Assembly: GCA_913777615.1 (NCBI GenBank)
Contig: CAJYTK010000005.1
Location: 96,184 to 160,183 of the forward strand
Reading direction: 5' to 3'
Length of the DNA: 64,000 nt
Source: an uncultured Agrobacterium sp.
GTDB taxonomy: Bacteria > Pseudomonadota > Alphaproteobacteria > Rhizobiales > Rhizobiaceae
Every line of letters begins with the position of its first letter. The first letter of the stretch is position 1. The position numbers and the translations under genes were made by a program. The notes under the pieces are model-generated. The model was not told where the DNA came from, did no database searches, and worked only from the letters and a program-made list of their open reading frames with translations. Positions 13,000 to 57,335 of this stretch are shown here, one piece after another.

Positions 13000-13032
13000 C
13001 TTAAGTGGCCCCTTTGGCAATCTCTGGAAGAA

Positions 13033-13285: not shown

Positions 13286-13302
13286 CATTAAAACGGAAGC
13301 GA

Positions 13303-14175: not shown

Positions 14176-14207
14176 TAAAACTGCCCCTCTGGCAAGTATA
14201 AAAGAAA

Positions 14208-14250
14208 GGGACATTCCGGTTTTACCGGTAAACGACGTACAGCGTCATGC
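14208..14250 (-). promoter_or_regulatory. Conserved flagellin leader element (copy 2)
   Basis: Same layout as copies 1 and 3: GCATGACGC, CGTTTA, a CCGG-TTTTA-type hairpin around 14216-14227, then AATGTCCC. It lies about 35 nt before the start codon. Confidence 0.55.
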
Positions 14251-14403
14251 TCGCTGAGTGAACCTATTAACACTTCAGCCGTCGTTCTGATGAATTCATC
14301 TAACAACGTTAGGGTTAACAACGGAATAATATATAATTAAAATAGGGTAAAAATAGAAATTAATCAGTTAATACGTTTTTAACTTGGGTTAATAAAAAGA
14401 AAA

Positions 14404-14425
14404 GGCCAAGTCTTGCGACCTGGCC
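14404..14425 (-). terminator. Terminator after the first flagellin gene
   Basis: A 9-bp stem with one G-U pair (arms 14404-14412 and 14417-14425) and a 4-nt loop. The minus strand continues TTTTCTTTTTATT. Confidence 0.8.
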
Positions 14426-14452
14426 TCTTTAATATTCTCTTTACGGCTGAGC

Positions 14453-15322
14453 TTAACGGAAGAGCGAGAGAATGCTCTGCGAGCTGGAATTGGCAATCGA
14501 CAGCGACTGGACCGCGAGCTGCTGCTGGGTCTGCAGTGCAGACAGACGAGCAGACTCTTCTTCCATGTTTGCGTCTACCAGGCGGCTGATGCCAGCGTCC
14601 ATGGCATCGCTGATCTTGCCCGCGAACTTTTGCTGCAGGTCGATGCGGGTGGACAATGCACCGAGAGCAGCAGCGCCCTTGGTCAGGCTCTTCAGAGCGG
14701 TTTCGACAGTCGTCAGGAAGCCGTCGATTTTGCCCTGCGTTGCAGCGCTGGTGAGTGCAATGGTCATCACGGCGCTCAAGATGCCGCCGCTGCCAACACC
14801 GCCGGCGATCGTCGAGAACATGGCATAGCTTGCAGCCTCGAAGTTCGCCGTGTTGATCTTGACGGTGCCATCGTCCTTGCGGATGAAGCCGTCGACAACC
14901 GTCGTCTTGGTGGCCGTGACCATCCAGTTTTCGCCGTTGAAGGATGCTGCCTGGCCGATAGCCGAGAGCTGTTCCTGCAGCTTCTTGACTTCAAGGTTAA
15001 CCTGATCCTTGTCGACAGAGCTTTCGCTCGCCGTAACCAGCTTCGCCTTGATTTCGTTGACGACGTCGATGGCGCTGTCCATCGCAGCGTAAGCCGTATC
15101 GACCTTTGCAGCACCGACGCCCAGCGCGTCAGTCGCGGCGCCGAGCGCCTTGTTGTCCGACTTCATGCTGGTGGAGATCGACCAGTAGGCAACGTTGTCC
15201 TTGGCAGATCCGACCTTGAGGCCAGAGGAAACGGCGTTCTGGGTAGTGTTCAGTTTGCTGCTGACGTCACGCAGGGTCTGAAGTGCAGCTGTAGCGTTTG
15301 CATTGAAGTTGATGCTAGACAT
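14453..15322 (-). CDS. Flagellin
   Basis: 289 residues from the ATG at 15322, preceded by AAAAGGGGCAATC. It starts MSSINFNANATAALQTLRD and ends ANSSSQSILSLFR. Terminal coiled-coil domains flank a short variable domain with WMVTATKTTVVDGFIRKDDG. It shares a long identical N-terminal block with the neighbouring flagellin. As the first of the series it may be the principal subunit (FlaA in Agrobacterium and Sinorhizobium, where FlaA is essential for a normal filament), but paralogue identity cannot be settled from order alone. Confidence 0.95.
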   Translation of the reverse strand: MSSINFNANATAALQTLRDVSSKLNTTQNAVSSGLKVGSAKDNVAYWSISTSMKSDNKALGAATDALGVGAAKVDTAYAAMDSAIDVVNEIKAKLVTASESSVDKDQVNLEVKKLQEQLSAIGQAASFNGENWMVTATKTTVVDGFIRKDDGTVKINTANFEAASYAMFSTIAGGVGSGGILSAVMTIALTSAATQGKIDGFLTTVETALKSLTKGAAALGALSTRIDLQQKFAGKISDAMDAGISRLVDANMEEESARLSALQTQQQLAVQSLSIANSSSQSILSLFR

Positions 15323-15398: not shown

Positions 15399-15681
15399 CT
15401 CGGGTCCATTTTCTGAAGGACACCAAACCCGTCACGTGACGATGAAAATGGCCCCCAAGCATTTCGAACTTCTTAATTTGACCCGTTGAATGCCCAGTTC
15501 CGGGGGCTACAGTTAACGTTGTGTGAACGGCTTGAAACGGATCTCGGGGCAGCACTCACGCTTTCCCGTTTCGAGCAAGGTTCATCCTGTAGGGTCGGTT
15601 GAATTTTCTATTCGCCGCAGATCGGTCAGCACCCCGGGTGGTGCCTTCCGAGATGTCGAGCAAGAGGACGCAACGGACCCA

Positions 15682-17604
15682 ATGTTAAACGAAATCAGCT
15701 ATTCGGCCGCTTCCAAGCATTTCAAGACGGGACGCTACACAGAAGCGCTGACGACGTTGAACCGGCTGATGGACACGAACCGGGATGCCCGCACCTATGC
15801 ATTGCTGGCGAAAACGCTGCTTCAGCTTGGACTGAAGGAACAGGCCGCCACGTCCTACGAACTTGCCTACCAGCAAAACGGTCTCGATGCCGAAACCTAC
15901 CTGGTCGAGAGCATCAAGCTGTTTTACGAATGCGGCGAGAAAGACAAGGCTCTGGCCCTTTCCAACCGGCTCATTCACCGGTTCCACAAACATCTGGACG
16001 TGGCCTACATCGTAGGATCGCTGCTGCTGGAGCGTGGCGAAAACCGCATTGCCCGGACGTTGAAGACGATCCTGATGAAGAGCGAGAATATCGAGCATAT
16101 CAAGCTCGGCGCCCGCATCGCGATCACCACTTGGGATCTTTTCGATCCAAGCGATATCGACACCGCCCGCGTTCTCCTGTCGAGATTGCCGCACAACAAT
16201 CCCGTGCGCCTGATGTATCTGGTGTTTAGCCGCGAACACAGCAGGTTCGACAATATCGAGAAACATCAGCCGATCATCGATGCGGCCGTGGCAGCAGGCG
16301 ATACGTCTTTCGTTTCGCTCGACGGCACCTTCTTCAATCTACACTGGAGCGGAGACGAGTATATCAACCAGCTGGCGCGCTCCAACACGCCAGACTTCAG
16401 CCCCGATATGACCGCAAGGCGTCGGGCAATGCCACATGAGTGGGGCAAGAAGATCCGCGTCGGTTACCTATCGTCGGACTTCTTCGACAAGCACGCCACG
16501 ATGAAGTTGATCCGCCGCGTTCTGGAACTGCATGACCGCGATCGTTTCGAAATCACGCTCTTTTGCCACTCCGACGAGGCATTGCTGAAGACAAACGAGG
16601 CCGACCGAAGCCTGTGGGGCGACGTCGTGACCATTCGCGATATGACGAACGAGGAAGCGCACGCAGAAATGCGCGCACGCAACATCGATATCATGGTCGA
16701 CCTGAAGGGACATACGGCCGGCAACCGGACCTCTATCCTCAATATGGGCGCTGCACCCATTCAGGTGGCGTGGATCGGTTTTCCCGGGTCGGTCGTCAAT
16801 ATCGATCTGGATTACGCCATCGGCGACCATTATGTGCTGCCGGAAAGCTCCAAGCCCTTCTATCATGAAAAGTTCGTTCGCCTCCCGGAAACCTATCAAC
16901 CGAATGATCCGCTCAACCGTCCGTTGGCAAAGCAGGTCAGCCGTGCGGATGTCGGCCTACCGGAAGATGCCTTCGTCTTCGCCTCTTTCAACGCCAACCG
17001 CAAGATCACGCCACGCGTCATCGAACTGTGGTGCGATATCCTGAAGAAGACGCCGAACAGCGTGATCTGGGTGTTGCATAATAGCCAGGTGAGTGCGGTC
17101 AACATCATGAAGAAGTTCACCGAAAGCGGCATTTCTGCCAAGCGCGTGTTCCTCATGGGCAAGCTGGATTTCGAACTCCATCTCAACCGTATTACGGCAG
17201 CGGATCTCGGTCTCGACACCTTCCCGGTCAATGGCCACACGACGACGTCCGAACAGCTTTGGTCCGGCTTGCCTGTCCTGACAGTCAAGGGCACGAATTT
17301 CGCCTCGCGGGTCAGCGAAAGCCTGCTGAATGCCATCGGCACGCCCGAACTCATTGCCAGCGACGAAGAAGAGTATGTGAGACAGGCCGTATTCTACGCG
17401 CAGAACCCGGACAAGCTGAAGGAGGTGCGCGACCGTATCGCGGACAACCGTTTCGTCACGCCGCTCTTCGACGCTGAACGCTTCTGCCGTCATCTGGAGA
17501 CCGCCTATGAAATGATGGTGGAACGGGCCAAGCAGGGCGACGAGCCGGATCATTTCGATGTGCCGGCACTGCCAAAACGCGAAACTCCCTTCCTCGATCG
17601 GTAA
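15682..17604 (+). CDS. TPR/GT41 (SPINDLY/O-GlcNAc-transferase-like) glycosyltransferase, candidate flagellin glycosyltransferase
   Basis: 640 residues from the ATG at 15682 (MLNEISYSAASKHFKTGRY). An in-frame GTG at 15523 would add 53 poorly conserved-looking residues. The N-terminal third is TPR-like (YTEALTTLNRLMDTNRDARTY; LGLKEQAATSYELAY). From about residue 255 the GT41 fold follows: RVGYLSSDFFDKHATMKLI, an FNANRKITP loop, and the donor-site HTTTSEQLWSGLPVLTVKG with ASRVSES. GT41 enzymes move a sugar from a UDP-sugar or other activated sugar onto protein Ser/Thr. In Caulobacter FlmG, a TPR plus GT41-type protein, glycosylates flagellin. Being next to four flagellin genes suggests the same role, inferred from context. 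A bidirectional terminator follows. Confidence 0.85.
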   Translation: MLNEISYSAASKHFKTGRYTEALTTLNRLMDTNRDARTYALLAKTLLQLGLKEQAATSYELAYQQNGLDAETYLVESIKLFYECGEKDKALALSNRLIHRFHKHLDVAYIVGSLLLERGENRIARTLKTILMKSENIEHIKLGARIAITTWDLFDPSDIDTARVLLSRLPHNNPVRLMYLVFSREHSRFDNIEKHQPIIDAAVAAGDTSFVSLDGTFFNLHWSGDEYINQLARSNTPDFSPDMTARRRAMPHEWGKKIRVGYLSSDFFDKHATMKLIRRVLELHDRDRFEITLFCHSDEALLKTNEADRSLWGDVVTIRDMTNEEAHAEMRARNIDIMVDLKGHTAGNRTSILNMGAAPIQVAWIGFPGSVVNIDLDYAIGDHYVLPESSKPFYHEKFVRLPETYQPNDPLNRPLAKQVSRADVGLPEDAFVFASFNANRKITPRVIELWCDILKKTPNSVIWVLHNSQVSAVNIMKKFTESGISAKRVFLMGKLDFELHLNRITAADLGLDTFPVNGHTTTSEQLWSGLPVLTVKGTNFASRVSESLLNAIGTPELIASDEEEYVRQAVFYAQNPDKLKEVRDRIADNRFVTPLFDAERFCRHLETAYEMMVERAKQGDEPDHFDVPALPKRETPFLDR

Positions 17605-35907: not shown

Positions 35908-37596
35908 TCATGCAGCTTTTTCCACAGCCCATTTGCGGAGAATCTTGGCGGCGCGTTCCTCGCTGATTTCCACCATGCGAGAGAGCCTGCGTTCCGGCCC
36001 TTCGCGAACCCGGCGATTGAAATCGCCACCGTCGTCGCCTCCGGCAAGAAGATCGTCCGTGCTGTCGAAACCGAAGTCCGCACCGAAGCCTTCCATGAGA
36101 CCACCTGCCGCGCCACCGCCAATGGCAGGAGAGAAGTCGGGTAGTTCCAGACCGGCTGCATCCTGCGCCAGCTCTGCCGAGGCCGGAGCGCCAGCACCCG
36201 ACATAGAGCGGACGACGGGACGGACACCAAGCCAAACGACCAGGAAGGCGACCGCGACGAATGCGAGCGAGTTGATGATGCCTGCGGAGTTACGGCTCAG
36301 CACTTCCGTGAAACCTGGACCTGCGACGGCCTCGTCAAGCAGCTGCGTTTCCAAGAAGTCCATCGCGGTGATGGTCACGACGTCGCCACGGTCGGCGGAG
36401 GTACCGGCAGCAGATGTGACGATCTTCTGCATTTCCGCCAGATAAGCGTCGATCTTGGCCTGATCGGCAGGCTCGCCGATCATCTTGGCAAGCCGTCCCT
36501 TGTTGACAACGACAGCCACGGAAATCTTATCGATCGTGTATCCGTTACGTACCGTCGCAACTGTCTTGGAGTTGATTTCGTAGTTGGTCTGCTCTTCCTT
36601 CTTGGCAGACTCGTCGGAAGATTTGGGACCGCCGCCACCACTCTGCGGTGCGGCCTGTGGCACGTTCTGCTCGACTGTTGCAGCGGAATCGGGCGTCGTT
36701 TCCTGAGACTTCTGATCTTCCTTGGTGGTTCTGACCGACCGCTCGACGCGCGATTCGGGATCGTAAACCGTCTCCTGGATCTGCTGGCTGTCAGTATTGA
36801 GCGAGGCAGTAACGCTTGAACGGAAGTTGTCCATTCCCAGGAACGGAGCCAGCGCCTTGTCGATCTTGGTTTCGAGTTCCTGCTGCACGTTCTGGGCAAG
36901 CGTCAGCGATCTGCTCATCGCACCGTTGCTGACATCGTCGCCGGAAGCAAGCAACTGCCCGGTCGAATCGAGAAGGGTTACGTCATCCACCTCAAGCCCC
37001 GGCACTGCAGAGGCAACCAGATGGCGAATGGATGCGGCGGCCTTGCGGCCCGCAGATGCGCTTGCCCGGATCATCACGGAGGCAGTCGGCTTTTGCTCTC
37101 CACGGCGGAAGTTGCCGACATCAGGCATCACGATATGGACGCGAGCGGCAGCAATGCCATCGATCTGCTGGATGGAGCGGCCGATTTCGCCTTCGAGCGC
37201 ACGGACCCGCGTTACTTCCTGCATGAAGGAGGTGAGGCCGAGAGAGCCGACATTGTCGAACAACTCGTAACCGGCGTTCGCGCTGTTGGGCAGGCCACGT
37301 TCAGCCAGGAGCAAACGAGCCTTGCTCGTCATTCCTACGGGAACCTGAACGCTCGTGCCGTCGGCACCGACCTGGAAATCGACATTGGCTTCGGCCAGCG
37401 CAATGCTGATCTTGTTCATGTCCATGGTTTCAAGGCCGACATACAGCGTTTCGTAAGCAGGTTTGTTCACATAAAGAGCAGCAGCGAGAATGATTGCCAT
37501 GGACAGAACGCCCACACCACCCAGCACCAAAAGCCGCGTCTGGCCTAAGGCCGCGAAGTTTTTAAAAACCTGAGGGAGTTGATTTAACAGATTCAT
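35908..37596 (-). CDS. fliF: Flagellar MS-ring protein FliF
   Basis: 562 residues from the ATG at 37596 (MNLLNQLPQVFKNFAALGQ), with GGAAC upstream. Two membrane segments lie near residues 25-45 (LVLGGVGVLSMAIILAAALYV) and 440-460. Between them are the ring-building motifs (YETLYVGLETMDMNKISIALAEA; VRALEGEIGRSIQQIDGIAAARVHIVMP), and the C-terminal FliG-binding tail has ERAAKILRKWAVEKAA. FliF is the first structure of basal-body assembly. It is monocistronic by its terminator, with a perfect flagellar promoter motif 54 nt upstream. Confidence 0.96.
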   Translation of the reverse strand: MNLLNQLPQVFKNFAALGQTRLLVLGGVGVLSMAIILAAALYVNKPAYETLYVGLETMDMNKISIALAEANVDFQVGADGTSVQVPVGMTSKARLLLAERGLPNSANAGYELFDNVGSLGLTSFMQEVTRVRALEGEIGRSIQQIDGIAAARVHIVMPDVGNFRRGEQKPTASVMIRASASAGRKAAASIRHLVASAVPGLEVDDVTLLDSTGQLLASGDDVSNGAMSRSLTLAQNVQQELETKIDKALAPFLGMDNFRSSVTASLNTDSQQIQETVYDPESRVERSVRTTKEDQKSQETTPDSAATVEQNVPQAAPQSGGGGPKSSDESAKKEEQTNYEINSKTVATVRNGYTIDKISVAVVVNKGRLAKMIGEPADQAKIDAYLAEMQKIVTSAAGTSADRGDVVTITAMDFLETQLLDEAVAGPGFTEVLSRNSAGIINSLAFVAVAFLVVWLGVRPVVRSMSGAGAPASAELAQDAAGLELPDFSPAIGGGAAGGLMEGFGADFGFDSTDDLLAGGDDGGDFNRRVREGPERRLSRMVEISEERAAKILRKWAVEKAA

Positions 37597-37649
37597 TCTG
37601 TTCCGCACCGTCATTCATGGGTCCGAGACCTTCTGGTCCCGATGCCACC

Positions 37650-37841: not shown

Positions 37842-40800
37842 TCAGGCGGCAAGGTAAGTGGAGATCACGGCTGCGACCTGAGCGGATGTCAGCGCACCCA
37901 TGTGAGTGTTGAGCAAGGTGGCAACCTGCGCACTGGAGAGGCTGACCAGCGTATCGGTAGAAAGTCCCGCAACGCCGCTGGTACTGAAGGCGGCTATATC
38001 CGCGGTCGAAAACTTGGCGATGTTCTCCTTGGAAATGGAAGCGACCTGCGCCGCTGTCAGTGCGCCGACCTGCGCTGGCGACAATGCCTCGCTTTGCGCG
38101 GTGGTGAGAGCCGAGATCACGCCTGTCGTCAGTCCGGAAATCGCGGACGTGCCCAACGCGGCGATCTTGTCGGTGGACAGAAGGGCGATATCGCCAGTGT
38201 CGAGTGCAGCCGCCTGGATCAGACTCAATCCCTGCAACTGCGCCGTCGTCAACGCTGCAATCTGCCCCGTGCTCATCGCCACGATCTGGTTATAGCCGAG
38301 ATTGCCGATATGGCTTGGACCGAGAACTGCAATTTCCTCTGTCGTCAGAGACGCGATGATGCCGGTGGAAAGGCCACGGATGGCCGCAGTGCTGATCGCT
38401 GCAATGTCTGCCGTCGAGAAGGTATCCATGGCGGCGGTCGAGAGCCCCGCGAGACCATCGGCGCTCAGCGCCGCGATCTGCCCGGTCGATAAGATATCGA
38501 TCTGGCCGGGCGTCATGGCGGCAATCTGGCTGCTCGTCAGTCCAGCGATCACAGATGTCGCAAGACTTGCAACTTCCCCGGTCGACAAAGCGGCGATGAA
38601 GCCGGTCGAAAGGCCCGGAATGGCCGATGAGTTGATCGCGGCGATCTTGTCTGGCGTGAACGTATCGAGGACCTGCGACGTCAAACCTGCGACGCCGCCT
38701 GAAGACAGCGCGTTGATCTGCCCGGTCGAAAGCGCATTCACCTGTTCGAGGCTGAGTGCGCCTACGTGTTGAGAGGTCATAGCTGACAGCGCGCCGGTAC
38801 TAAGGGCAAGGATCTGAGCGGTGGAAAGGGCCAGGAGATCGCCACTTCTCAAACCGACGATCTGCGTGGAGGACAGCGCCCCTATCTGCGCCGTGGAAAG
38901 GCCTGCGAACTTATCTGGCGAGAGCACCGCAAGCTGGCCGGTCGAAAGACCGGATATGCCGAGCGTACTCAGTGCTGCAATCGTCTCCATCGAAAGGGAC
39001 TTAAGGGTTACAGTCGATAACCCCGCGATGCCTGCAGCGCTGATGGCCCCGATATCGGCCTTCGAAAAGGCCTGGAACTGCTCTGCAGTGAGCGCACCGA
39101 TCTGCCGCGATCCGAGCCCTGCGACCTGTGCCGGCGTGAAGGCCTCGACCTGATCCACGGTCATCGTTGATATCTGAAGCGTCGTCAGTCCGGCAATCCC
39201 TGAAGCGCTCAGCGCAGTCATCTTCTCAGGAGACAGGATCGCGATGGCATCCGTCGAAAGGCCTGCAATGGCGCTGGAGGTCAACGCAGCGAGATCCTCC
39301 TTCGAGAAGCGGTCTATATCGTCCGCTCCCAATGCTGCGACCTGTGAGGAGGTCAGCGCCGCAACCTGCGCAGGCGTGAGTGCCTCCACCTGCGCGACCG
39401 ACAGGGAGGCGATACTGTTCGACGAAAGGCCGGCAACGGCCGCGGGATTGATGGAAGCAATCTGCGCAGCGGTGAGCACACCAAGCGCAGCAGTGCTTAA
39501 GACGGCCAACTGCCGCGATCCAAGAGCGCCGACTTGGGAGGACGTTAGTGCTTCCAACTGAGACGAGGTCAAGGCCGCGACCTGATCTGTCGACAGGCCT
39601 GCAATGCTGCCCGGCGCAAGCGCTGAGACCCGGTCTGCCGAGAGAGCGGCCAGCGTGACGGTTGAAAGACCCGCGAGTGCAGCTGAGGGCAGAGCAGCAA
39701 GTTCTGCCGTCGAAAATGCGCCGAGAGCATCGGTCCCGAGGCCACTGACTTGAATGGAAGTGAAGGCCGCGACCTGCGTGGCGTTGAACGCCTCGATCTG
39801 GCTTATGCTCAATTTGGCGATCTGCGCCGAAGATAATCCGGCCACACCGGCGGTGCTGAGAGCTGCGATCTGCGCTGTCGTCAGCGCTGCCACATTGGCC
39901 GTGGAGATGGCGGAAACCTGCCTGGAGCCAAGCGAGGCGATCTGCGCCGTCGTCAGGCTCGCAAGTTGCGCACTTGTCAGGGCGGCGATCTGGCTTGTCG
40001 AGAGACCCTGTATACCGCCTGCCGTGCCGAGGACGGCGATGCGATCCGCCGACAGACTGCCAAGTGCCTCTGTTGAAAGCCCTAAAATCGCGCTTGAGCT
40101 CAGAGCGGCGAGTTCTGCGGTAGAAAAGACCGCAAGATCGTCCGCCTCGAGGGCGGCCAGTTGTGTCGAGCTCAACACGGCCACCTGCGACGTCTTGAGA
40201 GCTTCGACCTGTGACGTAGTCAGTTTGGCAACCTGCTCTGCGCTCAAACCTGGGATACCGGCCTCACTCAAGGCGGCAATTTGCGAGGTTGTGAGCTCGG
40301 CAACGCCAGCCGTTCCGAGTGCGGCGACCTGACGCGAGCCAAGCGCAGCCACTTGCGATGTCGTGAGGCTGCTGATCTGGGCTGCACCAAGTGCCGCGAC
40401 CTGCGCTGTGGTCAGGCCAGCGATGCCGGTCGCGGAAAGCGCCGCAATCGTCTCCGTCGGCAGGAGCGCAATCTTTGCGGTCGACAGCCCTATAATCGCG
40501 CTTGCCGACAAGGCTGCGACGTCCTTGGAGGAGAAAACCTTGATCTGATCAACCGAGAGCGCCGCGACCTGTGCGGATGTCAATGCCCCGACCTGCTCGC
40601 TCGTCAGCGCTTCCACCTCGGTGGCCAGTGTCACGATCTGGTCCGTCGACAGACCGATGATACTCCCCTTATCCAGGGCAGCAATCTGATGGACGTCGAG
40701 CGCGGCTATGCCCGCCGTGCCCAAGGCCGCGATCTGTCTGGAAGTCAGTCCGGCTACCTGGCGGATCGAGAGCGATTTCAACTGCTCGGTCTTCAGCGCA

Positions 40801-43800
40801 GCGATCTGGGCCGTCGTCAGTCCGGAGATTCCCGACGGGCTGATCGACGCGAGATCTTCTGTCGACATCGCGGCAACCGTCGCAGTGGCAAGGCCAGCAA
40901 CCGCCGATGCGTTGATTGCGCCGATGGCGGCAGGAGACAACGCTGCCAGATCGTCGGTACCAAGGGCTGAAACCTGCTGCGAGGTCAATGCCGCAACCTG
41001 CCTGGTGGACAGAGCGGCAATCAAGCCTGTCGAAAGTGCTTCAATCTGACCCTTCGTCAGTGCAGCCACGGCCACCGTGCCGAGTGCTGCGATCTGACCG
41101 GTGCTAAGGGCTGCGACAGTCGCGGTTGGCAACGCGCCGATCATACCGGGCGCGATCGCACCGATATCAGCGGTGGAAAAGGTCTTGATGCTGTCTGCGC
41201 TCAGAGCTGCGAGTTGCGCGGAGGTCAGGGCGGCGACCTGAACGGCAGTCAGCGCTTCTGCCTGAGCAGAGGTCAGCTTGCCAATCTGAGCGGCGGTCAG
41301 CCCCGAGACGCCGCCTGTGCTGAACGCGGAAACCTGAGCCGCAGAAAGCGCCGCGATGTTATCGGTACCGAGCGCATTGGCCTGATCGGCCGAAAGAGCG
41401 GCGATCTGCCGGGTGGTCAGCGCGCTCGCGTGGAGGGTGGAAAGCGCGGAAATCTGCTTCGTCGTCAGACCGCCAAACGCCGTAGCGCTGAGGGATGCGA
41501 CCTGATCGGTCGTGAGCGAGCCTATTACCAGTGTGGAAAGGCCGCCAATCGCGCTCGCTCCGATCGCTGCCACGTCGCTGGTGGAAAACAGAGCGAGATC
41601 ATCGGTACCGAACGCCTCGAGCTGGTCGGCAGAGAGTGCTGCGACCTGAAGGGAGGTCAGCGCCTGCGCCTGTCCGGTCGTGAGGGCATTGACCTGTCTT
41701 GTGGATAGGCCACCGATGCCCGCCGTGCTGATCGCGGCGATTTGATCTGTCGAAAGTGACGCGATCTGCAATGTTCCCAAGGCGGCGATCTGGGATGGCG
41801 TCAGCGCAGCGATCTGGGCTGTCGACAACACATCGAGCTGCGCACTCGTCAGTGCGGAGATGTGATCGCCCGGGAGATTGGTAATGGCGCCCGCTTTCAA
41901 CGCCGCTATCTGAGCTGTCGAAAGGGCTGCAAGGCCTGCCGAGCTCAATGCGGCGGTTTGCACGGACGTGAGCGCTGCAATCTGCGAGATCGTCAGCTCT
42001 GCCAGCTGGGTGGGCTTGAGCGCTTCGATCTGGTCTGCGGTCAATGCTGCGACAGCTGAGGTGGGGAGGGCGGAAATCTGCGCGCTCGTCAGCGATGCGA
42101 TGATCCCTGTCGACAAGCCAGTGACGCCATTTGCCGACAGCGCAGCCACATCGACCGCGTCGAAGGTCGCAATGTCATCGGGGCCGAAAGCCGCTAACTG
42201 CGCGGAACTGAGCGCAGAAAGCTGCCGTGTCGTTAAAGCATCCACTTGAGCCGTGGACAGTGCAGCGATCTGCTCTGCCGTCAATGTCGCGATTGCCCCG
42301 GTGCTCAAAGCCGCAAGCTTTTGCGACGACATCACCGCGATCACGTCCTTGGAAAGCCCGGCGGTCGATGCAAGGGCCTGTATGCTCGCAACTGACATGA
42401 CTGCCATATCTTCCGGACCAAGGCCCGCCAGCTGGGTCGACGTCAGCGCCGAAATCTGGCCCGTTGACAGGGCTGATATCTGGACTGTCGACAAAGCGGC
42501 AATCTGCTCCGAGCTGAGCCCCTTGATTGCAGCGCCGCTGAGCGATCCAATCTGCTCTCCCGTAAGCTTCGCCACCGAGGCTGGTGTCAAGGCTCCGATC
42601 TGGCTGGAACCCAGAGCCTTGATCTGGCCGTTCGACAAAGCGTGTATCTGCTCGCTCGACAAGCTCACAATCTGATCGGTCGTCAGCTTCGAAACCGTGC
42701 TCGTGCTCAAAGCTGCCACTTGTTGCGTGGTCAATGCTGCGATCACACCCGTCGAAAGTCCCGCGACCGCTCTGGTGCTCAAGGCGGCAAGTGCGGATGT
42801 AGAGAGACCTGCCACCTGAACCGGCTTTTCGTTGACGGTCTTCCAGACGCCCGTCACCTGTTCCGGCTTCAGCGCGGCAAGCTGATCCGACCCAAATGCT
42901 GCAAGTTGCGCGGAGGACAAGCTGACGAGTTGCGTTGCTGAAAGCGCTTCCATCTGACCTGTGGTTAGCGCAGACACAACCGATGTCGCCAATGCGGCAA
43001 TTTTTTCCGGCGTCAATCCGGACAGGGCGCTGGTGCTCAAGCCCCGAATGGCCTGGGTGCTGATTGCATTCATATCGGCTGTTGAAAAGACATTGATATC
43101 CGCTGAACCTAGAACCGACAGTTGCTCAGAGGTCATGGCCCTGACCTGAACGGAGGTCAGAGCCTCAAGCTGGTTGGTCGTCAGGCTGCCGATCTGAGCA
43201 GTCGTCAGATTTGCAACGCCCGCCGTGCTGAGCGCGGCAACCTGCGCGGTCGTCAGGGAGGCGATATAGTCGGTGGATAGCGACTTGATCTGTGGCGCCT
43301 TCAAGGCATTGAGCTGGGCGACCGTCAGCGACGCAAGCTGGTCCGATGTCAAGACATCCAGCTGATCGTTGGAAAGAGCCGAGAAAGACGTGGTGGACAA
43401 GGCGGCGACCTGCGCAGGCGATAAGCCCTTTATCGCTGCTGTGCTCAGCCCCGACATCGCTTTGGATGAGATCGAGGCGATTTCCTCTGTCGTAAAAGTC
43501 TGGATGCCCTTCTCATCGAGCGCTGTCATCTGACTGGCGTTTAGCATCTTGATTTGTGCCGAGGTCAGGGCTTCCACCTGATCGACCGTAAGGACTCCGA
43601 TCTGGTCGGATGTCAAACGCGAGATGATCGTCGTGCTCAGGCTTGCAATCTGATCAGGGGTCAAGGCTGCGATGACGTCCGCGCCAAGACCAGGCATTGC
43701 CTTGGCGGAGAGAGAACCGATCGCAGACGCGTCGAGCGCCTTGATCTTTTCGGCCCCAAGGACGGCCACCTGACTGGACGTCAGCGCTGCTATCTGGCTG

Positions 43801-45197
43801 CTTGTGATCGCTTTCAGCTGTGCCGAGGTAAAGGCTAGGACCTGGTCTGTACCGAGCTTGGCGAATGTTGCCGTGCTAAAGGCGGCGACGTTGGACGTCG
43901 ACAGTGCTGCGATGATATCCGTGCTCAACCCAGCAGCGGCGGCGCTGGTCATCGCCGCCATATCGGCTGTGGAGAATGTATTGATCTGCTCCGCCGTCAG
44001 CGTGGCGATCTGATCCGAACGGAGTGCCTTGACCTGCTGCGGCGCCAAAGCCTCGACCTGCCGCGTTGACAGCGAGGTGATCTGCTCGCTGGTCAAGCCC
44101 GTGATCGCCCGCGTTCCCAAGGTGGCAATCTGCTCCTTGGTGAAGGCAGCGATAGCCTCCGTGCCCAAAGCCGCGACCTGGATCGAGGTCAGAACCTTGA
44201 CCTGCTTGGTCGTAAGAGCGGCAAGTTGGGCGGTCGAGAATGTCGCAATCTGTTCCGTAGAAAGCGAGGCGACGGACGCCGTTGCAAGTCCTGCAATTGC
44301 CGAGGCCGTCAGGTGGGCGATCTTGTCCGCGTCGATCGCCGCAAGTTGCGAGGGTTTCAACGCCGCAGCTTGCGCCGATGTCAGAACGCCGATCTGCGTC
44401 GCCTCAAGAGCCTCAAGCTGATCTGGACTGAGGCCACCGATAGACTTCTCGCTGATGGCCGCAATCTGTTGGACGGACAAAGCCTTCACAGCCTCCGTGC
44501 TCAGGCCCGAGAGAGCGCTGACGCTCAGCGCATTCATTGCTTCAGTCGTAAGCCCCTTGACGGCTGAGACACCAAGAGAACTGGTTTGCGAGGCCCTGAG
44601 GGCCGAAACCTGCGCTCTCGTCAGCGCCGCGATCTGCGCGTCCGAAAGAGCGGCCACCTGCTCCGGAGTCAGCGCAGACACGGCACTAGTGCTGATCGAG
44701 GCAATCTTATCGGACGAAAGCGCGGCGAGCGCGCTCGTCGTGAGGCCGACAATCGCGCGACGGGAAATGGCGGCGACGTCCGCCGACGAAAATGTACTGA
44801 TATCATCCGGGCTCATCATGGCGAGCTGGTCGGATGTCATTGCGCTGACCTGAGACGAGGTCAGCGCCTCAGACTGGGCGGTTGTCAAAGCCTCGACCTG
44901 GACGGTTGTCAACGCTCCGACCTGGTTCTTTGTCAGGCTTGAGATCGAAACGCTTTCGAGCACCGCCAATTGTTCGAGCGTGAGACCGACGACCGCGCTC
45001 GTGGAAATGGCACTAAGCTGCTTGGTGTTGAACTGCTTGAAATCTTCCACCTCCAGCGCAGCGACCTGTTCAGACGACAGGGCCTTGATCTGCTGCGTGG
45101 TCAGAAAGGGAATATCCTCCGTCGTCCAGGCGGCGATATCGGCGTTCGTGAGTGTTCTGATCTGGTTGACGCTCAGCGACGATACGATGGATGTCAT
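37842..45197 (-). CDS. Giant octapeptide-repeat protein (2451 aa), function unknown
   Basis: An uninterrupted frame made almost wholly of about 300 tandem octapeptides of consensus [ST][ST]-x-[QA]-[IV]-x-[AS]-L, for example TTAQIAAL. Residues 5 and 8 are hydrophobic, and each unit opens with Ser/Thr. Every 7-11 units one ends in GL (AIxGL type), and a unit pair of the form FSTAD-xAAI recurs, giving a second-order repeat. I find no Cys and almost no Trp. There is no Sec signal, membrane segment, RTX motif or anchor. It starts MTSI, as two flagellins do. Length predicts about 250 kDa. An AGG site precedes the ATG. The flagellar promoter motif lies 92 nt upstream, and a GT41 enzyme and glf are just upstream. 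A secreted or surface repeat protein is my guess; a structural cytosolic one is possible. Confidence 0.85.
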   Translation of the reverse strand: MTSIVSSLSVNQIRTLTNADIAAWTTEDIPFLTTQQIKALSSEQVAALEVEDFKQFNTKQLSAISTSAVVGLTLEQLAVLESVSISSLTKNQVGALTTVQVEALTTAQSEALTSSQVSAMTSDQLAMMSPDDISTFSSADVAAISRRAIVGLTTSALAALSSDKIASISTSAVSALTPEQVAALSDAQIAALTRAQVSALRASQTSSLGVSAVKGLTTEAMNALSVSALSGLSTEAVKALSVQQIAAISEKSIGGLSPDQLEALEATQIGVLTSAQAAALKPSQLAAIDADKIAHLTASAIAGLATASVASLSTEQIATFSTAQLAALTTKQVKVLTSIQVAALGTEAIAAFTKEQIATLGTRAITGLTSEQITSLSTRQVEALAPQQVKALRSDQIATLTAEQINTFSTADMAAMTSAAAAGLSTDIIAALSTSNVAAFSTATFAKLGTDQVLAFTSAQLKAITSSQIAALTSSQVAVLGAEKIKALDASAIGSLSAKAMPGLGADVIAALTPDQIASLSTTIISRLTSDQIGVLTVDQVEALTSAQIKMLNASQMTALDEKGIQTFTTEEIASISSKAMSGLSTAAIKGLSPAQVAALSTTSFSALSNDQLDVLTSDQLASLTVAQLNALKAPQIKSLSTDYIASLTTAQVAALSTAGVANLTTAQIGSLTTNQLEALTSVQVRAMTSEQLSVLGSADINVFSTADMNAISTQAIRGLSTSALSGLTPEKIAALATSVVSALTTGQMEALSATQLVSLSSAQLAAFGSDQLAALKPEQVTGVWKTVNEKPVQVAGLSTSALAALSTRAVAGLSTGVIAALTTQQVAALSTSTVSKLTTDQIVSLSSEQIHALSNGQIKALGSSQIGALTPASVAKLTGEQIGSLSGAAIKGLSSEQIAALSTVQISALSTGQISALTSTQLAGLGPEDMAVMSVASIQALASTAGLSKDVIAVMSSQKLAALSTGAIATLTAEQIAALSTAQVDALTTRQLSALSSAQLAAFGPDDIATFDAVDVAALSANGVTGLSTGIIASLTSAQISALPTSAVAALTADQIEALKPTQLAELTISQIAALTSVQTAALSSAGLAALSTAQIAALKAGAITNLPGDHISALTSAQLDVLSTAQIAALTPSQIAALGTLQIASLSTDQIAAISTAGIGGLSTRQVNALTTGQAQALTSLQVAALSADQLEAFGTDDLALFSTSDVAAIGASAIGGLSTLVIGSLTTDQVASLSATAFGGLTTKQISALSTLHASALTTRQIAALSADQANALGTDNIAALSAAQVSAFSTGGVSGLTAAQIGKLTSAQAEALTAVQVAALTSAQLAALSADSIKTFSTADIGAIAPGMIGALPTATVAALSTGQIAALGTVAVAALTKGQIEALSTGLIAALSTRQVAALTSQQVSALGTDDLAALSPAAIGAINASAVAGLATATVAAMSTEDLASISPSGISGLTTAQIAALKTEQLKSLSIRQVAGLTSRQIAALGTAGIAALDVHQIAALDKGSIIGLSTDQIVTLATEVEALTSEQVGALTSAQVAALSVDQIKVFSSKDVAALSASAIIGLSTAKIALLPTETIAALSATGIAGLTTAQVAALGAAQISSLTTSQVAALGSRQVAALGTAGVAELTTSQIAALSEAGIPGLSAEQVAKLTTSQVEALKTSQVAVLSSTQLAALEADDLAVFSTAELAALSSSAILGLSTEALGSLSADRIAVLGTAGGIQGLSTSQIAALTSAQLASLTTAQIASLGSRQVSAISTANVAALTTAQIAALSTAGVAGLSSAQIAKLSISQIEAFNATQVAAFTSIQVSGLGTDALGAFSTAELAALPSAALAGLSTVTLAALSADRVSALAPGSIAGLSTDQVAALTSSQLEALTSSQVGALGSRQLAVLSTAALGVLTAAQIASINPAAVAGLSSNSIASLSVAQVEALTPAQVAALTSSQVAALGADDIDRFSKEDLAALTSSAIAGLSTDAIAILSPEKMTALSASGIAGLTTLQISTMTVDQVEAFTPAQVAGLGSRQIGALTAEQFQAFSKADIGAISAAGIAGLSTVTLKSLSMETIAALSTLGISGLSTGQLAVLSPDKFAGLSTAQIGALSSTQIVGLRSGDLLALSTAQILALSTGALSAMTSQHVGALSLEQVNALSTGQINALSSGGVAGLTSQVLDTFTPDKIAAINSSAIPGLSTGFIAALSTGEVASLATSVIAGLTSSQIAAMTPGQIDILSTGQIAALSADGLAGLSTAAMDTFSTADIAAISTAAIRGLSTGIIASLTTEEIAVLGPSHIGNLGYNQIVAMSTGQIAALTTAQLQGLSLIQAAALDTGDIALLSTDKIAALGTSAISGLTTGVISALTTAQSEALSPAQVGALTAAQVASISKENIAKFSTADIAAFSTSGVAGLSTDTLVSLSSAQVATLLNTHMGALTSAQVAAVISTYLAA
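37866..45174 (-). repeat. Tandem 24-bp repeat array coding for octapeptides
   Basis: The coding repeats follow a 24-bp period throughout, with about 300 diverged units and a higher-order grouping of roughly 170-260 bp. The copies differ strongly at DNA level, so the array is old or under selection for divergence, not a recent slippage product. Small indels shift the octad phase at about 42820-42860 (the WKTVNEKPVQ insert) and at a few other places. Confidence 0.85.
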
Positions 45198-45398: not shown

Positions 45399-46571
<1,173 letters not shown>

Positions 46572-48626
46572 TCAAGCGATATTGGATGCCTGTTTCGTCC
46601 ACAAGCGGTTGTCATGCTGGATGGGCGAGAACGCGTGCCATTCCTGCAACTTCTCGCGGTATCGGCTGCGGTAGGCTGCCTCGTCGACATATTCCAGATT
46701 TTCCGCAACCAGTTCGGCGCCAATCTCGTAATAAACATCAAGATTGCGCAGATCGGGAACCGGCGTTTCACCGCGTTCGGCCTCTTCCTGCATCTGCCAA
46801 AAGAGATCTTCCAGCCTGCGCGCCGTGCCGGGAATATCACGCAGAACACTATTTTCGCGCCCGGCCTCAAGCTTTGCCCTGAGCTTTTTCAGGGTACCCG
46901 GCTTCTTCGCAAAGGCGATGGCCTTGGCGACGTAATCGTCCGGGCCGGAGCAGATGAGTTCCGAAACGCCCGTCGCCGCCACCACGCTGCTGCAGAACCG
47001 CGCCGCAAAGGATTTGCCGGGGAAAGTGAGAACGGGCAGCCCCACGGTCAGTGCGTCGGCGGCCGTTGAATGGGCGCCGTAAGGATAGGTATCCAAGAAC
47101 AGATCCGCCAGGGCAATGCGAGCAAGGTGGGCGGGATTACCGGCCTTAGGCGCAAAGAAGAGCCGCTCGGGTGCGATACCCGCTGCCTGCGCCAACTCAC
47201 GCAATCGCTGATCGGTCTTGTCCCCGCCGGTGAGCAGCCAAAGAATGCTTCCCGGCGTTTCGTTCAGTATTTGCATCCACTGCGCAAATGTGGCGGCGGT
47301 AATCTTCTGCATGCCGTTGAAGCAGGCAAAGACGAAGGTGTTTTCCGGCAGGCCGGCTTCCTGGCGTGTAGGACGCGGCGCGATTACCCTCTTTCGATCA
47401 AGCGGCTGATTGCACGCGATCCTAAGGACCTTTTCCGAATAATAGATTTCGCTGTCCGGCGGAACGATCACCTCGTCGGCAATCATATAGTGATGGAATG
47501 GCGTTCCCATGGTACCGGGAAAGCCGCAGAAATTGACAATGACAGGCGCCGGTCGATAGGCGAAAATCTTCGTGCGCGCATGTTTGGTGTAGCCGTTGAC
47601 GTCGATCAGTATATCGATCTCATCGCTTGCGATCTGGCGTGCGGCGGCTTCATCGGGGAGTGCACCGATCTCTCGCCAGCAATCCACCACGGCCTTCATT
47701 CGGATTTGCGTCGGGTCGTTAATCACCGGATCGCCACAGTAATAGGCGTAGATTTCGACGCGCGCCTTGTCGTGCAGTTCCAGCACTTCTCTCAATGCAA
47801 AACCGACGGCGTGATCGCGCAGGTCCGATGACACGTAGCCGACGCGCAGAGGTTTGTCGGTTCCTGTTTTGCGCCGAACGCTAGGGCGCGGGAAATTGCG
47901 GATGTCCGGTCGTCCCGCAAGGAATTTTGCGTACTGGCTTGCTTTGGCCAGTTGGAACATCGGATCGTCGGCGTAGCAGCCAAGGGTCAAAGGCGGCATG
48001 GCGTCGATGATCTGCCGGGCGGAGACGTGAACGGACGGCTGCAGGATCGGCCATTTGCATTGGCGCTGGCGAAGCGCGCTCCAATGCTGACCCGATTCCG
48101 GCTTGTCGGGGCGAAGCTCCATCGCGGCCCAAAGGGCCTCCTCCGCCTCTTCCATCAAGCCGGCATTTTCCATGACGCGACCGATATGCTGCAACGCCAT
48201 GTGCCGATAGGTGTGCCGGTCCGGTGTCGTTTCCGCCGTCTTGCCGACAAAGCTCTGCCATTGCTGGATCGCAAGAGGGGCCATGCCCGCGTCTTCAAAG
48301 GCCCGACCAAGATTGATATGAGCAGGCCCAAACAGCGGATCGTTTTTCAACGCAGCCTGCATGGCAGTGATCGCGCCTGCGAGGTCATCCATCTGGCGCA
48401 ACAAGACAGAGAAGTTGAAATAAACCATATGAGCGCCAGGATGGGCGTCGTTGAAGGCGAGCCAGGATTTATAGAGCTCGATCGCCTCCTGCGGTTTGCC
48501 TTCAGCGGTAAGGCTTTCTGCAAATTTCAGGAGATCGACAAGGGCAAGGCGCTGCGTTCTCGCAAGCTCCAGCAAGGTTGGAAGTATGGAATTCTGGACT
48601 GTGCCGCCAATCGATGCATTCATCGC
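46572..48626 (-). CDS. TPR/GT41 (SPINDLY/OGT-like) glycosyltransferase, second copy
   Basis: 684 residues from the ATG at 48626 (MNASIGGTVQN), with GAGGG upstream; an ATG at 48671 would add 15 residues. TPR-like repeats fill about residues 40-200 (AIELYKSWLAFNDAHPGAHMVY; GPAHINLGRAFEDAGMAPLA). The GT41 domain starts near residue 260 with RVGYVSSDLRDHAVGFALREV, has the FNGMQKIT loop and the donor-binding GAHSTAADALTVGLPVLTFPGK. It differs clearly from the copy beside the flagellins. The neighbouring repeat protein is rich in Ser/Thr and could be its substrate, as HMW1C (GT41) modifies the adhesin encoded next to it in Haemophilus. That is inference; flagellin is the alternative substrate. Confidence 0.88.
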   Translation of the reverse strand, partial: AMNASIGGTVQNSILPTLLELARTQRLALVDLLKFAESLTAEGKPQEAIELYKSWLAFNDAHPGAHMVYFNFSVLLRQMDDLAGAITAMQAALKNDPLFGPAHINLGRAFEDAGMAPLAIQQWQSFVGKTAETTPDRHTYRHMALQHIGRVMENAGLMEEAEEALWAAMELRPDKPESGQHWSALRQRQCKWPILQPSVHVSARQIIDAMPPLTLGCYADDPMFQLAKASQYAKFLAGRPDIRNFPRPSVRRKTGTDKPLRVGYVSSDLRDHAVGFALREVLELHDKARVEIYAYYCGDPVINDPTQIRMKAVVDCWREIGALPDEAAARQIASDEIDILIDVNGYTKHARTKIFAYRPAPVIVNFCGFPGTMGTPFHHYMIADEVIVPPDSEIYYSEKVLRIACNQPLDRKRVIAPRPTRQEAGLPENTFVFACFNGMQKITAATFAQWMQILNETPGSILWLLTGGDKTDQRLRELAQAAGIAPERLFFAPKAGNPAHLARIALADLFLDTYPYGAHSTAADALTVGLPVLTFPGKSFAARFCSSVVAATGVSELICSGPDDYVAKAIAFAKKPGTLKKLRAKLEAGRENSVLRDIPGTARRLEDLFWQMQEEAERGETPVPDLRNLDVYYEIGAELVAENLEYVDEAAYRSRYREKLQEWHAFSPIQHDNRLWTKQASNIA

Positions 48627-48972
48627 ATTCAAACCCTCATGCCGGCCGCGCCGCGTGGGAGCGAGCATCATGGCCGTGGTAGACTGAGGGAAAGACTAGA
48701 CATTGAAGCTTGTGCGGCGCTTTACGCGTGCGGATCGTCAGGCGAAGCGATGCATCGTGCCTTCCCGAAACCAGGGTTCGGTTTTCAGGTCAAGCGCCGA
48801 CGGACGCTCCCATTTCGGGCCCGTGTGTCCTGGGGTGAGATCAAAGGTCAAGATCCGGCAGGGTCGAAGCGCTGAGGACCATCGGCTCCGGCAGGTCAAT
48901 CACGTCGAGCGTGAAGACCGCCATCGCCTTCGGGCATCCTGCCGGGAGGTCCGGCGCTCTTGGCTTTTCAGG
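48627..48972. other. Intergenic region between the che operon and the accessory block
   Basis: 346 bases with no convincing gene. It holds the flagellar-type promoter motif of the second glycosyltransferase (48696-48718). I see only a 5-bp hairpin near 48950 and no clear terminator for the che operon. Confidence 0.5.
48696..48718 (-). promoter_or_regulatory. Flagellar-type promoter motif for the second GT41/glf operon
   Basis: On the minus strand GCCGCACAAG, nine bases, then CTAG, with one mismatch in the first half (CCGCACAAG). It lies 70 nt before the preferred start at 48626. Confidence 0.6.
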
Positions 48973-49374
48973 CTAAAACAGATCGAAGTCGCCCGATGCC
49001 TTGTCGATCGGCTGTGAATGACCGTGACGCAAGCCGGCACCCAGCGCCTTCTGCATCTCTGCAAGCTTGACGAGGCTGAGCGCCGTCGTCACATCCACAG
49101 CCCATTCGAGCGGGATGGATCCGGTGATGGTGTCGATGAACTCTGCCAGACCCCTTGCCTTCTGAACGGCAAGGTCGATTCCCTGCAAAAGCTTCAATCC
49201 ATCGTCGGAGACCGCACCATCAGTGGCCTCCAGCAATTGCGGCTCGATGCGCTCGATCAGATAGGCAACGTCATGGAGCTCCGAGACAACCCGCATCAGG
49301 ATGGTTGGCAGCGCCTCTTCAAAAATGTCGTTTCCAGCGCGCTCAGCGATAGTCATATGCAACTCCGTTGTCAA
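48973..49374 (-). CDS. cheT: CheT-like chemotaxis phosphatase
   Basis: 133 residues, all-helical, no membrane segment. It contains DLAVQ (Asp67 to Gln71), the D-x-x-x-Q motif that CheZ and CheX-type phosphatases insert into phospho-CheY. The last gene of the rhizobial che operon, once called orf10, has been described in Sinorhizobium as CheT, a phosphatase for the sink regulator CheY1. Position directly after cheD with an ATGA overlap and the motif support the same identity here. Confidence 0.8.
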
Positions 49375-49916
49375 AAAAACTCGATATCGCTTGCGGCCGG
49401 CTTGGCTGCCGGAACCGGACGTGTTTCCAGCGCGACCGTTTTCTGGGTTTCGGCACCACTGAGCGGGTGCTGGCGCGCCCTGCCCGATACCGGCCAGAAC
49501 TCCACCTTTCGGCCATGCTCTCCGCCCGTTGAGCTGCCGACCACCCTAATGCCTTCATCCCTCAGGAACTGCATCGCGAAGATTGCATTCTGCTCTCCTA
49601 CATTGGAGAAGCTGGCAATGGTTTTTGCGCCACCAAAAACCTTTGCCTCCAGACGATCACGGCGTGCGCCCTGCTTGAGCAGACCGTTGATCAGAAGTTC
49701 CATGAGATGCACCCCGTAACGGGTTGCATCACCACCCCCCATACCCCCCGTACCCGGCAGCAGAAAATGATTCATGCCGCCGACGCCCGCAACGGGGTCT
49801 CTGAGACACGCAGCCACGCACGAGCCCAGGATGGTCGACAGGACCACGTCGGGATCATTGGCGATCTTATATTCGCCCTGAATAATATGTACGCGCTTGG
49901 CTGCGGTTTCGATCAT
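49371..49916 (-). CDS. cheD: Chemoreceptor glutamine deamidase CheD
   Basis: 181 residues. The CheD core is present: the catalytic Cys in [28 protein letters not shown], the His in the same stretch and [15 protein letters not shown]-like sequence later. It deamidates glutamines of receptors so they can be methylated by CheR. It overlaps cheT at its end by 4 nt, and its start overlaps the end of cheY2. The C-terminal 25 residues are less conserved. Confidence 0.94.
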
Positions 49917-54950: not shown

Positions 54951-55247
54951 CTATATCTCCTTCGGGAGCATATGACCGATATCAACGCCGATCAGTTTAA
55001 GGGTTTTATCGAAGGCTTCAGAGGCCTTTGAAAATGTGAATTGCTTGCCATCTGCTTCCCAGGCTTTGATGCCAGCCATCAGAATCTGGACGCACTGTGC
55101 GCCCACGCGCTCGACCTCGGAGGCGTCTACCGTAACCGGCTTGCCCCGGAGCTCCTTCAGTTTGCCGTACAAGACGGATGCTTGAGTGAGGTCCAGCACA
55201 GGTGACAATTTCAGTGTCGAATGCGCTGCTGTCCTGCCTGCCATCAA
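54951..55247 (-). CDS. STAS-domain protein of the che operon
   Basis: 98 residues, one STAS domain of the anti-sigma-antagonist type ([42 protein letters not shown]). The Ser or Thr of antagonist proteins is replaced near VERVGAQ, so phospho-switching is unlikely. It overlaps the upstream receptor gene by ATGA. The gene is called orf2 in Agrobacterium che operons, and its role in chemotaxis is poorly defined. Confidence 0.88.
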
Positions 55248-56851
55248 ATGACTCCTTGGCGTTTATATTGTTGCTGCGCATGGCCGTAATCCATGCGCTC
55301 GGGTCGCATGGCGGTCGCATTGGCGTTTCTCGGCTGTGCGACGAACTCGTCGTCGGAATAAGCCTGCCGGGCAATACGGAATTCGCGCACCGTGCGGCCT
55401 AGCTCGAGAATGACTGTGTGCAGGTCGTCCGCTTCGGCAGCCGAGGAGGAAAGGCGCTCGGCGGCGCGATTGGCGTCCATGCCGATGGCATCCAGTTCCA
55501 CTGCAACATGATTGAGGTCGCCGGAATGTTCGCCAGTGCGTCGGGCGACATCACCGATCATATCGCTGATGCCTGTGACCTGCCGCACGACACCCTCTAT
55601 GGCCTCCTGCGTGCGATGAACCATCCGCACGCCTTCATCGACCTGCGTCTTCGTTCCATTGACGAGATTCTTGATTTCCCTTGCCGCGTCAGCGGAACGC
55701 TGCGCCAGGGCGCGCACTTCCTGTGCAACGACGGCGAAGCCCCTGCCGCTTTCACCAGCGCGAGCCGCTTCGATACCGGCGTTCAGCGCAAGCAGATTGG
55801 TCTGGAAGGCGATCTCGTCGATCGATCCGATGATGCGACCGATCTGTTCAGCCGACTGTTCGATGTCCGACATGGCGCTGATCGCCTCACCCACAGCCAT
55901 TCCGCTTTGTGTAGCCGCATTTCGGGCCTGCGAAACCGCACTCTCCGCCGCTGAAATCCGCTCGCTATTGTCGCGCACATTGTGAATGACGTCACCGAGG
56001 CGGTGCGAGGCATCGCTGAGGCGACGGAACTGCTCCGTGGAGGCGAAGGCAAGGCCGCCATTTTCGCGCGACATACGCTCAGCCACGCTATGCGCCTTTT
56101 CCACGCTCGCCCGCGTGGCGGACATGGAGCCACCAATGCGGGCCATGGCCGTATTGAAAGCGTCCGCGAGTTCGCGGTAGGCTTCGGGCACCTCGCCGCC
56201 AATGCGGGCGGTGAGATCTCCTGCGGCGAAGGCATTCAGCGCCTCGCCAAAAAGCTTCGTCACCTCTGCCTGATCATCTTCCCGCTGACGGGCAAGCTCC
56301 TGATTGTGGCGGATGCGCAATTCGTTGAAGCGTAGCGACACCGCAATTTCAGTATCGACCATCACCAGCCTGACGACCGACTTAACGGCCGCGGCCAGTT
56401 CCTGATGACGTTTGCGCGCACCTGGCAGCAGCGAGCGAGGCGGATGTTGTGCAATAAGTCCCGACAGCAGATTTTCCAGAACGACCGCGCGTCCGGCAAC
56501 GCTCCAGCGAGGATCGAGACCCATGCGGCTTTCAGTGTCGGACAAAACCTTGACGCGCTCGGCATAGACCGCATCGAAGCGTGCATCGGTCAGTACCGAC
56601 CAGTGCGCCGTCTGCATGTCGTGCAGCCGTTCGACCTGGTTGTCACTTTCGAAAGATGGTGAACAGTCCGGCATGGACTGGAAGCGCACCATCAGATCGC
56701 GAAGCCCAGCCTTCAGATGGGGTTCGAGCATAGTACGGTAGCGGCGCAACAGATCACACTGGTCCTGATCGAGACCAGCGAAACGCAAACGGCCACCCAG
56801 GCTACCGCCCGTGGTCCTTCGCGAATGATCTGTCGGCAGGTCCTGCCCCAA
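55244..56851 (-). CDS. Cytoplasmic globin-coupled methyl-accepting chemotaxis protein
   Basis: 535 residues if translation begins at the TTG at 56851 (GGGGG upstream); the open frame reaches 57145 but the extension is AT-rich and unlike the family. There are no membrane segments. The N-terminal sensor-globin fold (about 17-165) contains [11 protein letters not shown] and [21 protein letters not shown]. The signalling domain with [19 protein letters not shown] follows. In heme-binding sensors a proximal His sits four residues before GL. Here that residue is Glu107, so heme binding in the standard way is doubtful. It heads the che operon, like the internal receptor in Agrobacterium and Sinorhizobium. 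Confidence 0.88.
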
Positions 56852-57335
56852 GTGACGCCCCCAAAGCTTTGCCGGCACGACCGGCAGATAACGGTTTCGA
56901 GAATGCCAGTACCCTTGAGGGATGTTCACGACATGGGACGTCTCTGACGGACGCCGCACACATGTAAGCTGAGCCTTCTGCAACCAAACGGAATACCGGA
57001 TCGACCCGGTACGGCAGCGCGGCATCATGCCTGAAAGGAGAGAGTGTCTCCATTTCGCCGTGAAATACGTCACATCTTTATGGTTAATTCCTTGCCTGAA
57101 AGTTAAGAATAGTGGTTTGAGGCAACGAATATTAAAATTTGCCATTGATTTGCAGGAGCTACGCGGGAGTTACCGAGTCACGCATTGGACGCTGTCGAGT
57201 TCTCTGCCGGTTTTTTATCTTTTTTACACGTCACGCGCTGGACAAGCGTTCTACCATTACCCTAAGATAATCAATATGATATTTGCTTTACGGTGATGCT
57301 CTAGCGGACTCGACAGAAACAAGGAGGTTACGATT
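56852..57335. other. AT-rich upstream region of the che operon
   Basis: About 480 bases between divergent units. The part 57060-57300 is clearly richer in A and T than the flanks and probably holds the che operon promoter. The flagellar motif TCGCRCAAG-N9-CTA was not found here. No gene or RNA recognised. Confidence 0.45.

Follow-up and report, generated by a model that had tools for sequence, protein, structure and literature searches.

The window analysed here, 64,000 nucleotides from an uncultured Agrobacterium sp., carries a three-gene cassette between cheD (49371..49916) and fliF (35908..37614), the latter lying downstream in the direction of transcription; all five genes are on the minus strand. 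The cassette begins with a gene for a TPR-containing GT41 (OGT-like) glycosyltransferase of 699 aa (46572..48671), followed by one for a UDP-galactopyranose mutase (GLF) of 384 aa (45399..46553; PF03275, E 2e-77, with NAD_binding_8), and ends with a gene for an octapeptide-repeat protein of 2451 aa (37842..45197). An earlier, sequence-only reading had taken this last open reading frame alone and missed the linked GT41 and GLF genes, in which most of the information on function resides.

The cassette adjoins fliF in 11 of 25 genomes of the genus, that of the window included. The other 14 all have an empty site, at which cheD and fliF are adjacent and ~500 bp apart, and some of these empty-site genomes contain a related cassette elsewhere. 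The same arrangement is seen in named relatives, including Agrobacterium rosae, A. larrymoorei, and Rhizobium skierniewicense. A second repeat/GT41 cassette in the window genome runs off contig ends (L105 and L106, at the ends of contigs C19 and C17 of G000), where long repeats probably interrupt the assembly, and in genome G002 one repeat gene reads as two ORFs. At two loci a Methyltransf_FA-domain protein is encoded between the GT41 gene and glf (L110:18079-19332 and L111:18036-19322); relatives of this protein were found in 20 of the 84 loci searched (L129-L212). Window positions 55244-57145 encode a methyl-accepting chemotaxis protein with a protoglobin sensor domain.

The repeat gene starts with an ATG, a choice supported by relatives that begin with the same MTSI. 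The description of its product as an uninterrupted frame of about 300 octapeptides was confirmed by a register parse, in which 303 octads account for 2424 of the 2451 residues, with four insertions of 1–7 residues each. Self-identity is 0.334 at a lag of eight residues, compared with 0.047–0.105 at non-multiples of eight (lags 1–39). Within the octad, Ser or Thr occupies position 1 in 77% and position 2 in 63% of units, Gln is found at position 4 in 51%, and positions 5 and 8 are hydrophobic (I/V/L in 90% at position 5; L in 80% at position 8, the remainder being F, I, M, or V). The protein contains no cysteine, 602 Ser/Thr residues, and 5 N-x-S/T sequons. A second-order pattern, previously described as units ending in GL every 7–11 octads, is real and could be made sharper: identity peaks occur at octad lags of 7, 10, 17, 24, 27, 34, 44, and 51, which fit a super-repeat of 17 octads (136 residues) made up of 10 + 7. 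Repeat copies at the DNA level (63–88 nt) are 60–74% alike among those displayed by the repeat finder, for which 60% is the listing threshold. The C-terminal 350 residues (37845..38894) are the more conserved end, with a mean column identity of 73% in 16 rows, compared with 59% in 16 rows for the N-terminal 384 residues (44046..45197), where the MTSI start is held in common. Repeat lengths among relatives range from about 460 to 3230 residues.

In Pfam, the protein matches PF20080 (ALTTAQ repeat) with 1204 bits over 89 stretches, far exceeding the curated cut-off of 26.4 bits. The sequence-only reading had named no family with certainty, which was incomplete, as both this curated family and a matching solved structure (PDB 9zem) exist; a literature search retrieved no paper on the ALTTAQ repeat or PF20080 and no described function, and papers returned under "PF20080" were set aside as apparent catalogue-number matches, judged by title. 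The NCBIfam scan gave a single match (E 0.32), and the ice-nucleation repeat family was not listed by Pfam or NCBIfam at E values up to 10. Of the eight families that Pfam listed up to an E of 10, none is of the RTX type, in keeping with the earlier remark that no RTX motif is seen, and no signal peptide or anchor was seen by eye. Rfam reported nothing in the window at gathering thresholds, promoter and terminator predictions were no more frequent than in shuffled sequence, and among phages a single match was obtained, to a Mycobacterium phage present in two records (27% identity, E 4e-6). Among relatives, the annotations "ICE nucleation protein" (L212:7744-12429) and "heme utilization protein" (L211:11998-15096) occur, the former on Cereibacter proteins; both names are probably misleading. 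In Pseudomonas asturiensis, octads are found in three consecutive annotated ORFs (L211:11998-19289), the last of which ends in a different C-terminal sequence, and the gene looks to be split.

AlphaFold models of both protein ends were obtained with a pLDDT of 94.5, whereby each octad is predicted to form one short helix, mostly of 4–6 residues, with position 1 as the N-cap; the C-terminal model ends in two longer predicted helices. These models bear out the suggestion of one short helix per unit with an S/T N-cap, and neither contains a strand, contrary to the β-solenoid that had been offered as an alternative. The protein is accordingly predicted to be a long cysteine-free helical rod, or screw, with S/T caps at position 1. 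Among solved structures, HeliScrew4 (PDB 9zem, 120 aa), apparently a designed protein as judged from its name and sequence, matches the repeat protein with E 5.9e-17 (1.9e-23 for the C-terminal profile). The two share octad spacing and hydrophobic pattern but differ at position 2, which in HeliScrew4 is Pro in 83% of the 12 parsed units and never S/T. HeliScrew4 was absent among the 50 rows listed by Foldseek or VIA-align, which says nothing on the fold. The best Foldseek rows were mesothelin (E 1.8e-4); among the seven rows with E up to 0.001, those of mesothelin had TM-scores of 0.23–0.35 and an rmsd above 11 Å. What is held in common with the mesothelin superhelix and armadillo folds is a superhelix of short helices, an analogy of arrangement at most.

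The repeat protein is under purifying selection, as had been claimed from the divergence of its units. Values of dN/dS were 0.12–0.20 against ten genus orthologues, for which dS is saturated (1.35–3.2), so that most weight rests on two closer pairs with dN/dS of 0.10 and 0.11 at dS of 0.61 and 0.75. Length is kept at 2376–2462 residues in 11 orthologues, and octad positions 4 and 8 are the most conserved. Ser/Thr residues are retained as S or T in 86% of orthologue residues at position 1 and 79% at position 2, compared with 30–47% at positions 3–7. The simple, repetitive composition might be taken for a functionless low-complexity expansion, but the low dN/dS of both the closer and the saturated pairs, which speaks strongly against a junk frame, together with the kept length and the confidently predicted fold, makes such an origin very improbable.

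The cassette glycosyltransferase matches PF13844 above the cut-off and TPR_14 at 34 bits. A profile of the GT41 family matches a solved OGT chain (E 7.4e-100), with an alignment that spans the TPR region and the two catalytic parts, including FNxxxKI, and for this reason the enzyme is probably active. The GT41 enzyme and the repeats come and go together in the genus: 18 of 25 genomes have the enzyme (61–100% identity), exactly those with 52–132 PF20080 matches, and of the seven genomes lacking it six have no PF20080 match (Fisher 2e-6, ignoring relatedness and with the seventh genome, G017, counted as without repeats). G017 has five PF20080 matches in a 274-aa ORF (L086:9470-10294) with an MTSIL start. 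Its first 120 residues share 85% identity with the N-terminal end of one repeat paralogue, and its last 134 share 73% with the C-terminal end of another. The fusion is in frame, and the ORF is flanked by genes from both sides of intact cassettes in a genome from which GT41 has been lost. A single deletion between repeat genes, removing GT41 and GLF, explains both paralogue ends and both flanks, and G017 would thus represent a natural deletion scar.

Across the class, 6 of the 385 genomes sampled, among them that of the window, have PF20080 matches; within the genus the figure is 19 of 25, with one further genome outside it. The PF20080 profile also matches the Caulobacter vibrioides control genome, the organism of FlmG. 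A named scan was made of the best 80 of 238 GT41 relatives, nearly all from Rhizobiaceae. An octad-repeat ORF lies within 10 kb in 70 of these 80, in varied orientation, and GLF is found in 58, some of the other 22 loci ending at contig ends. The loci fall into 43 flanking groups; by hand count, a locus with repeats is present in 38 of them, although where flanking ORFs are few the number of separate groups may be too high. For each of the 10 loci left over, PF20080 matches lie elsewhere in the assembly. This result is weaker than adjacency, comes from a comparison that takes in Rhizobiaceae outside the genus only where GT41 is present, and is less striking than the class rate suggests because the repeat is frequent within the genus. 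Among 57 plasmid records with repeats, at least 26 have, by eye, a GT41 no more than about 10 kb away, with 60 of 98 GT41 records listed and the other 31 repeat records showing no listed GT41 within that distance. One plasmid record with a repeat gene directly next to a GT41 gene is that of the laboratory strain Cereibacter sphaeroides 2.4.1; the type I secretion genes that adjoin them were observed in a strain given as 2.4.1 in its source field. Repeats without a close GT41 are found in genomes G080 (best identity 35%) and G181 (none).

In a 40-row tree, 29 repeat-linked GT41s and four non-adjacent ones from repeat-bearing genomes form one group of two subclades, apart from three flagellin-linked GT41s and four controls without repeats nearby; support is 94/83, just under the tool's own threshold, and the tree takes in 15 of the best 80 loci, with hand-picked controls on long branches and a long-branch-join warning. 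At L092:1215-5187 and L114:11950-15752 there are tandem GT41 pairs, each pair with one member from each of the two repeat-linked subclades, and repeats as well as type I secretion genes adjoin them. The window itself encodes a second TPR-GT41 enzyme on the plus strand (15523..17604), which falls on a separate branch outside the repeat-linked group and adjoins four flagellin genes at 10865-15322; it probably glycosylates flagellin, as FlmG does.

The S/T content of octad positions 1 and 2 was compared between repeat proteins with and without an adjacent GT41 of the repeat-linked clade, leaving out pieces under 400 aa and rows with identical first 300 residues. At position 2 the median is 0.78 in 112 GT41-adjacent proteins and 0.59 in 16 non-adjacent proteins (p 4e-7), a comparison confounded by relatedness, as most of the 16 are Agrobacterium paralogues; position 1 is unchanged (0.76 versus 0.75, p 0.10). 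Natural repeat proteins range from 0.28 to 0.98 at position 2, with the window protein at 0.63. The lowest two values belong to L094, where the best GT41 of the genome is 35% identical, and L091, which is a second repeat gene in a genome whose GT41 lies elsewhere. Because helix capping alone explains Ser/Thr at position 1, these residues prove nothing on glycosylation; the position-2 correlation, uncorrected for relatedness, supports but does not prove acceptor sites.

From these results we propose, with a probability of roughly 0.6, that the repeat protein is a dedicated giant rod that is O-glycosylated in the cytoplasm by the adjacent TPR-GT41 enzyme and then exported as a surface-, matrix-, or flagellum-associated glycoprotein. 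The enzyme would modify many of the roughly 190 Ser/Thr residues at octad position 2 before export, and GLF would probably supply UDP-galactofuranose for the glycan or its extension. The presence of GLF points to galactofuranose as the sugar; near cassettes of other lineages a UDP-glucuronate decarboxylase or GDP-mannose dehydratase-like gene is found, suggesting that the sugar may differ among lineages. A more specific form of the proposal, which we hold only tentatively, is that position 2 is a built-in acceptor and the rod a regular carrier of up to about 190 sugars, possibly containing galactofuranose, that this GT41 clade evolved for one substrate, and that the whole is a portable "glyco-screw" cassette of plasmids and chromosomes with its export route, type I or flagellar, swapped by lineage.

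Gene adjacency alone cannot tell a substrate from a partner, and the repeat protein could instead scaffold or regulate the GT41 enzyme, whose TPR domain might bind the helical rod, while GT41 and GLF serve another glycan pathway and modify flagellin, polysaccharide, or some other target. This is improbable given that position-2 S/T tracks GT41 adjacency, that the wide span of repeat lengths suits an acceptor better than a stoichiometric partner, and that the window flagellins have their own GT41 alongside. Comparably small is the chance that in Agrobacterium the protein is a structural rod of the cytoplasm, neither exported nor glycosylated. The window cassette lacks export genes, with no linked ABC/HlyD/TolC-type secretion genes beside the repeat gene, and the protein has no signal peptide by eye. 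A dedicated type I system in Agrobacterium finds no support: in the 13 genus genomes searched HlyD does not follow the cassette, as several matches occur in genomes without it, and G009 has the cassette with no HlyD match at 1e-10. Against a cytoplasmic rod stand the type I secretion genes that adjoin GT41 and repeats in Cereibacter, P. asturiensis, Niveispirillum, and Pseudoroseomonas, and the precedent of FlmG, a cytoplasmic bacterial O-glycosyltransferase that modifies its protein before export (PMC7591256).

For the Agrobacterium clade, the leading rival is that in Rhizobiaceae the rod leaves by the flagellar type III apparatus and joins or coats the flagellum, which on gene neighbourhoods we regard as unlikely overall, though less so than either of the preceding two. 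Flagellar structural genes occur in the flanks of 5 of the 43 groups of the named scan, the cheD/fliF clade being one, compared with about 0.5–1.3 expected on a guessed background of 1.25–3% (p 0.0002–0.009); the count omits two weak matches (L147, fliI-like, 29–34%; L204, FliN-like, 35%). An FlgE homologue lies directly upstream on the same strand in R. rhizogenes and R. dioscoreae, flagellins are found in the flank in Ectorhizobium, a partial flagellin stands at the contig end in R. miluonense, and in R. deserti a repeat gene, GT41, and a second repeat gene are placed between fliG and flhB (L193:6807-21289). Outside the named scan, flagellins lie near repeats in G013 and Pseudorhizobium flavum, as do flhA/fliQ/fliE/flgC/fliI in Rhodovastum. 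However, 38 of the 43 groups lack a flagellar setting, type I genes occur instead in four other lineages, the panel of flagellar genes was picked after the first cases had been seen, and the cassette could have landed next to fliF by chance. A general partnership with FlgE was dismissed, as its gene is upstream of the repeat gene in two loci of one group only. Further flagellar neighbours are an flhB homologue (37%) in G243 (L088:17315-18337), at a distance of ~3 kb from its repeat gene, and flagellin-like matches about 4–6 kb from a repeat paralogue of G016 (L102:2209-3960).

Glycosylation of the rod by the adjacent GT41, followed by export, remains the preferred reading. PF20080 was already known, as a repeat name only; its partner, fold, and function are proposed in the present analysis, and a family with no described function found in print gains a testable one through the linked OGT-like enzyme. 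To our knowledge, the substrates of bacterial OGT-like enzymes are flagellins and adhesins, and the octad rod, if the proposal is true, would be a new substrate class. It would also provide plant-associated bacteria with a regularly spaced glycan carrier of 2,451 residues, a natural and glycosylatable counterpart of the apparently designed helical screw.

Among known glycosylation systems, one comparison is with glycosylated adhesins. HMW1C is a member of the GT41 family and acts in the cytoplasm. The cassette enzyme is closer to OGT, its profile matching an HMW1C-like entry at 3.2e-5 compared with 7.4e-100 for OGT. In the HMW1/HMW1C system of Haemophilus and EtpA/EtpC of enterotoxigenic E. 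coli, a large exported adhesin is encoded beside its own glycosyltransferase (PMC3983070), and the likeness here is that of a glycosyltransferase gene beside a large putative acceptor gene, by adjacency alone. HMW1 is exported by two-partner secretion and glycosylated at Asn sequons (PMC3012730). No TpsB-type gene was found among the window proteins scanned, which cover a part of the window and genome, and with few sequons relative to its Ser/Thr content the repeat protein is unlike an acceptor with many Asn sites. A second comparison is with FlmG of Caulobacter, which O-glycosylates flagellin in the cytoplasm before export and has an N-terminal substrate-binding domain (PMC7591256). The proposed cytoplasmic O-glycosylation before export resembles this system, likened by description rather than by FlmG sequence. 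The two differ in that FlmG places pseudaminic acid on flagellin, whereas here the linked enzyme is a UDP-galactopyranose mutase and the presumed substrate an octad rod.
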